From Virgibacillus ndiopensis (GTDB lineage Bacteria > Bacillota > Bacilli > Bacillales > Amphibacillaceae): 64,000 bases of DNA. Position numbers and translations under genes: made by a program. The notes beneath the pieces were generated by a model. The model was not told the origin of the DNA, searched no databases, and saw only the letters and a program-made list of their open reading frames with translations. This document shows positions 20,202 through 42,375 of the stretch, one piece after another. Each line of letters starts with the position of its first letter. Positions within the stretch are counted from its first letter, which is position 1. Where the stretch lies: the NCBI RefSeq assembly GCF_900187325.1, contig NZ_FZMZ01000005.1, positions 372,001-436,000 on the forward strand, read 5' to 3'.

Positions 20202-21440
20202 ATGGGCAAACCTAAAAGAGATCCCAACTCCATAGAATTAGCTAACAAGATTATTGAACAGTATCAACCAAAGTCTGTAGAAGATATGCAAGATGCATTA
20301 AAGGACATATTTGGACCTATGTTTGAATCGATGTTAAAAGGTGAAATGAATCATCATTTGGGCTATGAATCCAATGATAAGGGAGAAAAAGAAACAAACA
20401 ATAGACGGAACGGGTACGGAAAAAAGAAAGTCAAAACGACTGCTGGCGAAGTGGATATTGCTGTACCTCGTGATCGTGACGGTTCATTTGAACCAGAGCT
20501 TATTCCAAAGCGTAAAAGAGATGTTTCTGCCATCGAGGATAAAGTCATCTCCATGTATGCAAGAGGAATGTCTCAGCGAGATATTTCATCCACGATTGAA
20601 GATATCTATGGATTCTCCGTGTCTCATGAAATGATATCCGATATTACCGATACAGTGCTTCCTGATTTAGAAGAGTGGCAAAGTCGCCCTTTAAGTAACT
20701 GTTATCCATTTGTATTTGTAGATTGCCTTTATACGACGATACGTAATGACTACGAAACCAAGAAATACGCTGTTTATACCATGTTAGGCTATACCATGGA
20801 AGGAAAGAAAGACATTCTTGGTCTATGGTTAAATGAAACGGAAAGTAAACATAAATGGATGCAAATCTTTGATGAAATAAAAGCTCGTGGTGTAGAAGAT
20901 ATTTTCTTTATTTCCATGGATGGAGTAAGTGGATTAGAAGATGGAGCTCGTGCCATTTTCCCACAAGTTGTCGTACAACGCTGTATTGTTCATCTCATTA
21001 GAAATTCGATTAAGTATGTTCCAAGTAAAGACTATAAAGCTTTTACTGCTGCATTAAAAAAGGTTTACGCTGCACCAAGTCTTAAGGCTTGTCATAGTGC
21101 ATTCGAAAGCTTTCAACAACAATGGTCTGCCTATCCAGGAGCTATTGACGTATGGAAACGAAACTTCTCCCATGTGGAACAACTATTTGATTATGGAAGT
21201 GCCATACGCAAAATCATGTACACTACCAATGCGGTAGAAAGCATACATTCTAGCTTTAGAAAAGTGACTAAAAAAGGAGCATTCCCAAATGAGAACGCTC
21301 TTCTAAAAGTATTATATTTACGAACGAAAGAACTTGAAAACAAATGGGAAGGTGGCCATATTCAACAATGGGCAATGGTGATGAACCAGCTATTAATACA
21401 TGACCATCTTAATAAACGTGTGTTAAAATATTTAGAATAA
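20202..21440 (+). CDS. IS256-family (Mutator-type) transposase
   Basis: A full-length 412-residue DDE transposase. The catalytic acidic residues expected for the family are visible as Asp174 (FVDCLY), Asp240 (ISMDGVSGLED) and Glu346 (TTNAVESIHS), with the family C-H motif in QRCIVHLIRNSIK around residues 260-272. AAAGGAG precedes ATG 20202. It lies alone inside the insertion sequence and shows no frameshift or stop, so it should be active. Confidence 0.95.
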   Translation: MGKPKRDPNSIELANKIIEQYQPKSVEDMQDALKDIFGPMFESMLKGEMNHHLGYESNDKGEKETNNRRNGYGKKKVKTTAGEVDIAVPRDRDGSFEPELIPKRKRDVSAIEDKVISMYARGMSQRDISSTIEDIYGFSVSHEMISDITDTVLPDLEEWQSRPLSNCYPFVFVDCLYTTIRNDYETKKYAVYTMLGYTMEGKKDILGLWLNETESKHKWMQIFDEIKARGVEDIFFISMDGVSGLEDGARAIFPQVVVQRCIVHLIRNSIKYVPSKDYKAFTAALKKVYAAPSLKACHSAFESFQQQWSAYPGAIDVWKRNFSHVEQLFDYGSAIRKIMYTTNAVESIHSSFRKVTKKGAFPNENALLKVLYLRTKELENKWEGGHIQQWAMVMNQLLIHDHLNKRVLKYLE

Positions 21441-23870: not shown

Positions 23871-24494
23871 TTAATGAATAGTTCGATGAAGTCCAATAAC
23901 TTTACCTAAAATAGTAACGTTTTTATATATTAATGGATCCATTGTTGCGTTTTCCGGTTGTAAGCGAATATGATCTTTTTCTTTGAAGAAACGTTTCACA
24001 GTCGCTTCGTCATCTTCAGTCATTGCAACGACAATATCACCATTTTGCGCCGTACTCTGTTGTTTCACAACAACTTTATCTCCATCTAAAATACCTGCTT
24101 CTATCATACTTTCACCCTCAATTACCAACACATATACGTTTTCATCTGGGGCAACACTTGAAATTGGTAGTGGAATAAATTCCTCTATGTTTTCAACAGC
24201 AGTAATCGGTATCCCTGCTGTAACTTTACCAATTACCGGTGCATATCTAGCTTCTTCTCTTGGAATATTACTCTCTTCTGATAGATCTAAAATTTCAATT
24301 GCTCTAGGTTTAGTCGGGTCCCTTCTAATATAACCCTTACTTTCTATTCTTGCTAGATGGCCGTGAACTGTAGAACTAGATGCCAATCCAACTGCTTCGG
24401 CTATCTCTCTTACTGACGGTGGATAACCCTTTTTACTTACCTCATCTTTAATATAATCCAGAATCATTTCTTGTCTCTTGGAGAGTTTTGTCAT
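23871..24494 (-). CDS. lexA: SOS repressor LexA
   Basis: LexA represses DNA damage genes and cleaves itself when RecA filaments form. The 207-residue protein has an N-terminal winged helix ([28 protein letters not shown]), the Ala93-Gly94 cleavage site in VTAGIP, catalytic Ser129 in EGESMIEAG and Lys167 in ATVKRFF. Family length and spacing (Ser to Lys 38) are normal. The gene is divergent from the yneA-position peptide, with LexA boxes between them, so it is autoregulated. Confidence 0.97.
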
Positions 24495-24556: not shown

Positions 24557-24627
24557 CAAACATTCGTTCGAAAAACTATTGACAGGATCATTTGTTCGGT
24601 ATAGTATTGTATACGAACAAAGGTTCT
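24557..24627. promoter_or_regulatory. LexA operators between lexA and the SOS operon
   Basis: Three sites resemble the SOS box CGAAC-N4-GTTCG. They are 24557-24570 CAAACATTCGTTCG (one mismatch), 24585-24598 GGATCATTTGTTCG (two mismatches) and 24614-24627 CGAACAAAGGTTCT (one mismatch). A TTGACA at 24579-24584 with TAGTAT (17-base spacer) or TATAGT lies among them and faces right. B. subtilis has a similar cluster in its lexA-yneA intergenic region. Confidence 0.85.
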
Positions 24628-24650
24628 TGTTCGGAGGAGGGGCTGATAAT

Positions 24651-24746
24651 ATGTTTGGGAAACTAACAAAAACGGATGCATTTTATCTTGCGACGTTTGT
24701 ATTCACTCTAGTATTTTTATACTTTTCCATGGTTACAAGTTCGTAG
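24651..24746 (+). CDS. 31-residue SOS-controlled membrane peptide (yneA position)
   Basis: A short gene missed by length-filtered gene calls. ATG 24651 follows GGAGGAGG and ends at TAG 24744-24746. The product has a short polar head (MFGKLTKTD) and one hydrophobic helix (FYLATFVFTLVFLYF) ending in SMVTSS. In B. subtilis this position holds yneA, a 105-residue membrane-anchored division inhibitor with a LysM domain; here only the membrane part exists. LexA boxes lie directly upstream and yneB and ynzC follow, so SOS induction is expected. A division-inhibitor role is inferred from place and topology, not shown by homology. Confidence 0.7.
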   Translation: MFGKLTKTDAFYLATFVFTLVFLYFSMVTSS

Positions 24747-24764: not shown

Positions 24765-25436
<672 letters not shown>

Positions 25437-25504: not shown

Positions 25505-25738
25505 ATGATATCTAAAGTTAAGTTGAATCGTATAAATGAACTTGCTCAAAAAGCTAAGTCAGAAGGATTAACAGAAACAGAGAAGAAAGAGCAAAAAGGG
25601 CTTAGGCAGGAATATTTACAAAATGTACGTAGCTCGTTTAAAAATCAATTTAAATCAATGACAGTTGTAGACCACGAAGGAAACGATGTTACACCACAAA
25701 AAGTTAAAGATTTGCAAAGTAAAAACAAAGACAATTAG
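25505..25738 (+). CDS. ynzC: YnzC, UPF0291 family
   Basis: A 77-residue protein of the DUF896/UPF0291 family, the same length as B. subtilis YnzC. It begins with the family's helical hairpin ([18 protein letters not shown], then [17 protein letters not shown]); the C-terminal third is probably disordered. CGAGGAGG precedes ATG 25505. It is the last gene of the SOS operon; no biochemical role is known. Confidence 0.93.
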
Positions 25739-41310: not shown

Positions 41311-42375
41311 ATGATTGAGTTTAAGAACGTACAAAAGGTTTATCAAGATGGAACCAAAGCGTTAAAGAATTTTTCTCTGAAAATAGACAAGGGGGAGCTG
41401 GTAACTTTAATAGGACCAAGTGGTTGCGGAAAAACTACCACTATGAAAATGGTCAATCGTTTGATCGAACCTACATCAGGGTCAATATCTATAAATAACA
41501 AAGACATTAATGATTTTAATATTCATGAATTACGCTGGAATATTGGTTACGTTTTACAAGAAATAGCATTATTTCCACATATGACTATAGAAGAAAATAT
41601 AGCGATAGTACCGGAAATGAAAAAATGGAAGCGGAAAAGAATAAGAGAACGAAGCAATGAATTGATGGACATGGTTGGACTTGATCCTTCTACATATCAA
41701 AAACGTATGCCAAGTGAATTGTCAGGAGGTCAACAACAACGAATAGGTGTAATACGTGCACTCGCAGCTGATCCAGACATTATATTAATGGATGAGCCAT
41801 TTAGTGCACTTGATCCTATAAGTAGGGAGCAGCTGCAAAATGACATCCGATCATTACAAAAGGAAATAAAAAAAACAATCGTTTTTGTCACACACGATAT
41901 GGATGAAGCGATGGCAATTGGTGACAGAGTTTGTCTTATGAAAGTTGGAGAGATTGTTCAAGTTGATTCGCCACAACAATTAATTTTGCACCCAACGAAT
42001 CAGTTTGTGAAGGATTTTATTGGCGAAAGAAAGTCCCCATGGCAAACTGCAGTGGATGTAATTGCAAATCAATCATATGAAAATATAATTAATAAAGATA
42101 AATTTGAAAATAAGGAATGTCTTGATACCGAGATATACGTAATAAAAGACGAGAATGACTGTTTTGGAGGAGTAGTACAAAACGGAAAGTTATACAATGT
42201 TAAAACGCTCCAAAATGATATACCATTATTTAAAGCAACAGAAATAATTCAAGCAAGTGACCAACAAATTTTTCCTGTTCTAAAGGAGGACAAATTAGTT
42301 GGGGTACTTACATTTAAAGATATTGTAGCGTTTCTAAAAAGTAGAACGAAAGTGGAAAATGGGGTGATTCAATAA
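41311..42375 (+). CDS. Osmoprotectant ABC transporter ATPase (OpuBA/OpuCA-like)
   Basis: ATPase of a glycine-betaine/carnitine/choline-type importer. From ATG 41311 it has 354 residues: Walker A GPSGCGKT at 35-42, the Q-loop YVLQEIALFPHMT, signature LSGGQQQR, Walker B IILMDEPFSALDP, and at the C-terminus a CBS-like segment (about residues 290-345) usual in OpuCA. AAGGAAG lies 6 bases before 41311; an in-frame ATG at 41305 directly abuts it and longer upstream starts lack support. Its stop overlaps the next ATG (TAATG). Confidence 0.9.
   Translation: MIEFKNVQKVYQDGTKALKNFSLKIDKGELVTLIGPSGCGKTTTMKMVNRLIEPTSGSISINNKDINDFNIHELRWNIGYVLQEIALFPHMTIEENIAIVPEMKKWKRKRIRERSNELMDMVGLDPSTYQKRMPSELSGGQQQRIGVIRALAADPDIILMDEPFSALDPISREQLQNDIRSLQKEIKKTIVFVTHDMDEAMAIGDRVCLMKVGEIVQVDSPQQLILHPTNQFVKDFIGERKSPWQTAVDVIANQSYENIINKDKFENKECLDTEIYVIKDENDCFGGVVQNGKLYNVKTLQNDIPLFKATEIIQASDQQIFPVLKEDKLVGVLTFKDIVAFLKSRTKVENGVIQ

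Follow-up and report, generated by a model that had tools for sequence, protein, structure and literature searches.

The gap between lexA and yneB, which holds yneA in Bacillus subtilis, contains an open reading frame of only 31 residues in Virgibacillus ndiopensis, and this locus raises the question of whether such a short frame is a gene and, if it is, whether a single membrane helix could serve there in place of YneA. The matter bears on an open question, namely the way in which small SOS membrane peptides arrest septal wall synthesis. The following features were located in the window, i.e., the whole 64,000-nucleotide stretch of DNA that was analysed, to which all coordinates refer unless another replicon is named:

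23871–24494, minus strand: lexA, the divergent SOS repressor gene (PF01726, E = 3e-28)
24557–24570, no strand assigned: LexA box 1, CAAACATTCGTTCG (1 mismatch), near-invariant across 51 upstream regions
24579–24607, plus strand: predicted promoter TTGACA-17-TAGTAT, between LexA-like sites; TTGACA shows no or almost no variation in the clade alignment
24585–24598, no strand assigned: LexA box 2, GGATCATTTGTTCG (2 mismatches), sitting in the promoter spacer
24614–24627, no strand assigned: LexA box 3, CGAACAAAGGTTCT (1 mismatch)
24633–24642, plus strand: strong Shine-Dalgarno sequence GGAGGAGGGG, 8 nt before the peptide ATG
24651–24746, plus strand: peptide gene in the yneA position (ATG start, TAG stop; 31 aa, predicted single transmembrane (TM) helix)
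24777–25436, plus strand: yneB, resolvase-like, the next gene of the operon (NF049883, E = 7e-105)
25505–25738, plus strand: ynzC (DUF896; PF05979, E = 8e-31)

The product of the gene at 24651–24746 is MFGKLTKTDAFYLATFVFTLVFLYFSMVTSS. A single TM helix was predicted from the Kyte-Doolittle mean of 2.04 over residues 10–28, the best 19-residue stretch, with the N-terminus inside, because K4 and K7 precede the helix (positive-inside rule), and with only a few residues beyond the helix left outside the membrane. The C-terminal LysM domain that marks the YneA family is absent from the 31-aa peptide, and no NCBIfam or Pfam model matched it. A longer reading of the frame from TTG at 24579 (55 aa) was rejected, because that stretch contains the promoter and the operators and because the relatives use the conserved ATG. 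A preliminary description of this DNA had reported a short gene with one membrane helix between lexA and yneB, an excellent ribosome binding site and three LexA-box-like sites upstream; all three observations were confirmed, the sites being those that start at 24557, 24585 and 24614, which are conserved in relatives.

Sites with no more than two mismatches to the consensus CGAAC-N4-GTTCG were counted as LexA-like. Their mean number per upstream region was 2.9 in 51 related regions against 0.03 in shuffled sequences, and 41 of the 51 regions carried exactly three. The gene thus stands, as members of the YneA family do, in the lexA–yneB slot behind LexA boxes, and the three conserved operators over the promoter point to the LexA-controlled transcription that is common to SidA, SosA and YneA. 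One LexA was found in the whole window genome by its PF01726 match. The same type of box lies 5′ of what we take to be uvrB and dinB in this genome (both recognised from sequence), so this LexA specificity appears to be in use there. A transketolase-like gene is located 3′ of yneB and ynzC, presumably the same gene order as in B. subtilis. A transposase-like open reading frame of 412 aa, of the IS256 type by eye, occupies 20202–21440, about 2.4 kb from lexA.

Conservation was followed in 80 loci obtained from a yneB scan of named genomes and in one locus from a second genome of the genus. By yneB, the nearest named relatives of the window genome (3.85 Mb) were Cerasibacillus, Ornithinibacillus, Virgibacillus, Lentibacillus and Oceanobacillus. 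In the Oceanobacillus/Virgibacillus/Gracilibacillus/Pontibacillus group, the window included, 51 of 52 loci carried the peptide, with a length of 31 aa in 27 cases, 30 aa in 23 and 34 aa in one; the start codon was ATG in 50 of these 51, and an SD-like site was present in all 51, at a median spacing of 8. The sole exception was Candidatus Avamphibacillus (L038), whose lexA–yneB gap held no open reading frame. The other 30 loci (Bacillus, Neobacillus, Mesobacillus, Anoxybacillus and others) carried YneA of about 107 aa instead. Among 49 peptides, M1, D9, F16 and Y24 were invariant, and Y12 and F22 were nearly so. The pN/pS ratio was 0.43 in the peptide frame, whereas the other two frames gave 0.77 and 1.46, and close pairs differed by 0/3, 0/5, 1/5 and 1/7 nonsynonymous/synonymous changes. 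This pattern of substitution indicates that 24651–24746 is a real gene, conserved and under purifying selection.

The spacing within the slot agreed with a replacement at the same place. The median distance from the start codon to lexA was 161 nt for the peptide and 151.5 nt for YneA, whereas the lexA–yneB gap measured 277 nt with the peptide and 494 nt with YneA, a difference of about 217 nt that equals the size of the missing LysM part; the median distance from the peptide stop to the yneB start was 23 nt. In Lentibacillus salicampi (L006), the gap was 517 nt against the median of 277 nt, additional sequence being located 3′ of the peptide and before yneB.

The distribution of the two gene types was compared in a sample of 397 genomes of the order, in which families, genera, genomes and loci are labelled f, g, G and L, respectively. 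The peptide profile matched 49 genomes, belonging to families f1, f2, f7, f32 and f36, and the YneA model (NF010723) exceeded its curated cut-off in 265; no genome appeared on both lists, which were compared by eye. The best NF010723 E-values in the 49 peptide genomes ranged from about 1e-6 to 1e-12, none of them near the curated cut-off, which is the level expected of other LysM proteins. The peptide was found in 137 of 159 genomes of the window's own family and in 43 of 44 genomes of f7; the latter family includes Halobacillus, as the f7 place G564:C2:42169-42255 has the coordinates of the match on the Halobacillus litoralis plasmid NZ_CP129017.1. Within the window genome, no YneA-like LysM protein was found elsewhere: all LysM matches lay in frames of at least 260 aa, so no second YneA is hidden there, and the best NF010723 match (E = 8e-9) was far under the curated scores. 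The preliminary description had placed a LysM-free product in the yneA position, had named conservation of the frame in close relatives and the ratio of synonymous to nonsynonymous change as the points to check, and had stated that a full-length yneA elsewhere in the genome under SOS control would speak against it. The outcome was favourable throughout: the frame persists in the group at 30–34 aa under purifying selection, peptide and YneA are mutually exclusive in the sample, and a full-length yneA is absent from the rest of the window genome.

Another 59 genomes, almost all of them lacking both the peptide and a YneA above the cut-off, were then read at the lexA–yneB gap. In f3, f6 and f35, the slot was occupied by proteins of about 52–97 aa (lengths taken from the likely start), which have a helix at the N-terminus and no visible LysM motif, and in f21 by proteins of 55–62 aa whose helix (KLWKNYSYVILLL) is clearly YneA-like and which lack LysM. 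Shorter forms were present in genus g43 of f35 (about 34–40 aa) and in genus g84 of f19, which has a separate peptide of 28–32 aa (e.g., MMKKLQSDFIYYVLFVLLSLGMVFASAI). No such open reading frame was seen in the gap in f11, in parts of f2, f3, f16 and f22, and in G202 of f1. Read across these genomes, the slot is a natural size series, from TM with LysM through TM with a tail and TM only to nothing. The longer LysM-less homologues, like the prophage copies described below, had been overlooked in the preliminary description.

Profile comparison of the peptides with 19 proteins of f3, f6 and f35 gave a probability of 96.6% and an E-value of 6.7e-10 over 30 columns; when columns were permuted inside the hydrophobic and polar classes (n = 150), the best score was 20.9 against the real 40.8 (0/150). 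The f21 proteins matched YneA at 97% (E = 5e-11), and the match between the peptide and f21 was weak (43%), yet above all 150 permutations. Direct comparison of the peptide with LysM-type YneA was not significant; 3 of 150 permuted controls reached the score. Common descent of the peptide and YneA is likely because of the shared position and of the profile links from the peptide to f3/f6/f35 and from f21 to YneA, although sequence alone is no proof of it. Since their sequences differ, the TM-only forms appear to have evolved on three or more separate occasions.

Two further arrangements were observed beside lexA. At L345, L382, L383 and L384, an apparently independent TM-only peptide of 28–32 aa (KKLQSGFIYYVLFVLLSMGMVFITAS type) was preceded by three LexA-like boxes and adjoined by ynzC, and yneB was not found there. 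At L334, L335, L337, L338, L343, L347, L350 and L353, neither a yneA-type gene nor yneB was found, and in most of them a ynzC-like gene came directly next; parts of the SOS operon thus seem to have been lost repeatedly.

Additional copies of the peptide were detected in about 30 genomes. Twenty-four of these copies were examined, including one on the H. litoralis plasmid, and 20 of the 24 lay in prophage-like early regions. By sequence comparison, the neighbours of the prophage copies were a divergent Xre-type repressor and integrase, excisionase, Rha antirepressor, RecT, and YqaJ or SbcC-like genes. The prophage homologues were 25–34 aa long (L145, L146, L148–L150, L430, L432, L433, L435–L438, L440–L447), some of the weaker ones (L446, L447) without a clear ATG. 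The start of 19 of the 24 copies fell at, or inside, the stop of a preceding gene of about 80–180 aa (18 overlapping it by 1–23 nt and one beginning 1 nt further on), which is the arrangement that translational coupling would predict. In the prophage operons, the homologues usually overlapped the end of a gene of 80–130 aa, often a YqaH-like one. One of the upstream proteins passed the Pfam cut-off of YqaH, a DnaA binder (PF17448, 33.2 bits against 31), and a second remained below it (20.1 bits, E = 8e-4); nine loci matched two YqaH-like queries, two of the nine being the queries' own loci. For YqaH and YqaM of the B. subtilis skin prophage, binding to the replication proteins DnaA and DnaC and lethality upon overproduction have been reported (PMC3531473). 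A LexA-like box within 400 nt upstream was found at none of the 24 extra copies, which are therefore probably under phage control.

The plasmid copy (L247, about 42157–42258 of NZ_CP129017.1) encodes a 33-aa homologue, MFRYFASLDKLDWAYIALFAGALVFLYHSMITA, that overlaps the end of a gene annotated as ardA; it is absent from the PLSDB gene table, which is itself known to be incomplete. No match to the peptide was found among GenBank phages, and the 82 matches of a pattern scan of IMG/VR were all chance by appearance. One prophage copy had a weak match (E = 1e-4) to the unnamed PHROG phrog_12200. The tested peptides matched no Pfam family, and neither they nor one prophage copy matched an NCBIfam model. 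The lack of a curated model and the plasmid copy missing from the gene table bear indirectly on the suggestion in the preliminary description that gene finders miss this class.

Considering together the conserved slot, operators, promoter and ribosome binding site, the purifying selection and invariant residues, the exclusion of YneA, the homology to longer LysM-less slot proteins, the copies in phage early operons and the TPR protein kept in the DdcA position, we favour, with moderate confidence, the reading that the peptide would take the place of YneA as the clade's SOS checkpoint peptide and would block septal wall synthesis by an intramembrane contact, most likely one made with FtsW. The peptide is probably a reduced form of cell-division brake. 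DNA damage would take LexA off the three operators, and the 31-aa peptide would then be translated from its strong ribosome binding site and inserted as one helix with the N-terminus inside. The conserved face formed by D9, Y12, F16, L20 and L23, flanked by F22 and Y24, may pack against the TM helix of a late divisome protein, FtsW being the likeliest. These five residues lie on one face of an ideal helix and F22 and Y24 lie off it, and the conservation moment of the helix is suggestive, not significant (P = 0.07). Septal wall synthesis would be halted by this purely intramembrane contact without a peptidoglycan-binding domain, as proposed for Caulobacter SidA. Because it has almost no extracellular part, the peptide is expected to be spared the CtpA-type cleavage by which YneA is removed, and its abundance may be set by renewed LexA repression or by another protease. 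The prophage homologues coupled to yqaH-like genes would probably stop host division in early infection.

LexA-controlled small membrane division inhibitors are already known; what is new is a version in the yneA slot that consists of the TM alone, spans the clade and is shared with phages. The openly accessible papers searched gave no account of a YneA that lacks LysM, or is reduced to its TM, in these genera. YneA of B. subtilis (NF010723; TM and LysM, about 103 aa) shares with the peptide the lexA–yneB slot, multiple LexA boxes, the start position and an N-terminal TM with predicted N-in topology, but neither a LysM nor an extracellular domain is present in the peptide. In B. subtilis, YneA needs its helix to reach midcell through FtsW TM7, and the helix by itself is enough for this; five residues near the helix start (K5, E6, F10, V11 and F14) are critical. 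The block of division requires peptidoglycan binding by LysM; YneA-TM without LysM reaches midcell and is non-toxic in B. subtilis (PMC13396833). The order of an acid followed by aromatics in the peptide resembles these residues, as a matter of order alone and not of alignment. SosA of Staphylococcus (77 aa) is a LysM-less SOS membrane division inhibitor of the same general class; it needs a membrane-proximal extracellular segment, which the peptide does not have, and is inactive without its last 30–40 residues (PMC6851548). A TM-only inhibitor therefore needs a mode of action of its own, and the yneA position alone is no proof of division inhibition. The precedent of a single-helix inhibitor of this size, to which the preliminary description had appealed, stands: SidA of Caulobacter is an SOS-induced membrane inhibitor of 29 aa that binds FtsW (PMC4211646), and FtsW is a plausible target of both. 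SidA belongs to another phylum and another locus and is likened to the peptide by description; its activity is experimental, and the proposed activity of the peptide is supported by genomic evidence.

The harmless midcell localisation of YneA-TM (PMC13396833) would also suit an SOS peptide that attaches to the divisome, or to another membrane protein, and does not block it, for example as a modulator or as a guard against phage inhibitors of the same fold, and the homologues on phages make a host decoy conceivable. We consider such a role unlikely, as it would leave these lineages without an identified SOS division inhibitor despite intact lexA and operators. Loss of the gene in some lineages is compatible with a blocker and a non-blocking binder alike.

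Size, the single helix and LexA control are also properties of DinQ and TisB of E. coli (about 27–30 aa), and DinQ, with 27 aa, depolarises the membrane (PMC3567139). By analogy, the peptide might insert into the membrane, lower the proton motive force and slow growth with no specific block of division. This is rather improbable on several grounds. DinQ and TisB are encoded by type I toxin-antitoxin loci, which include antisense RNA and structured leaders (PMC3567139), none of which was seen at the peptide locus, where the leader is short, a strong SD is close to the start and no Rfam family exceeded its cut-off near the gene, in a search that reaches known RNA families. Moreover, the peptide is encoded in an operon with yneB–ynzC, at precisely the place that division inhibitors occupy; it has homologues whose extracellular tails measure about 30–60 residues, and its near-invariant D9, Y12, F16, F22 and Y24 suggest contact with a protein. 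Finally, its place directly 5′ of yneB (median 23 nt) could fit a leader for yneB translation or a decaying YneA remnant, a reading made very improbable by strong purifying selection at the amino-acid level and the strict length of 30–34 aa, which contradict it, and by the homologues on phages and a plasmid, far from any yneB.

The significance of the peptide lies in the mechanism. In B. subtilis YneA, the helix targets FtsW and LysM is said to do the blocking (PMC13396833), and a helix-only clade would mean either a second, intramembrane way to inhibit FtsW or another role of SOS peptides. A wider view, which we advance only tentatively, is that the slot presents a size series of one SOS division inhibitor with the helix as the only common part; the helix alone would suffice in several lineages, FtsW-type septal synthases could then be stopped from within the membrane, and phages would use the minimal helix with a YqaH-like gene to halt the start of replication and division together. 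The phage copies would represent a further element, a module for host takeover directed at the cell cycle, and the peptide family would close a gap in annotation models.

The proposed target was compared between peptide genomes and YneA genomes (FtsW loci L318–L327 and L388–L398). The end of the presumed TM7 and the start of the next loop were about 5–9 residues shorter in the peptide genomes, which also presumably lack the proline that we equate with P206, a position mapped without the B. subtilis sequence and missing from some YneA-bearers as well. The helix of FtsW on which YneA docks thus differs in the peptide clade, and this docking site is not simply kept, which counts against the preferred reading. 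TM7 as a signal of co-evolution was set aside: the region running from the end of TM7 into the following loop ranks with the more divergent internal segments, but lineage drift would account for this just as well. Loss of DdcA as a sign of a changed mechanism was likewise rejected, because each of the 20 genomes checked has an open reading frame of about 330 aa beside tig, at the DdcA position; in two of these 20, it was checked by Pfam and BLASTP as a TPR protein, 27% identical to that of B. methanolicus.
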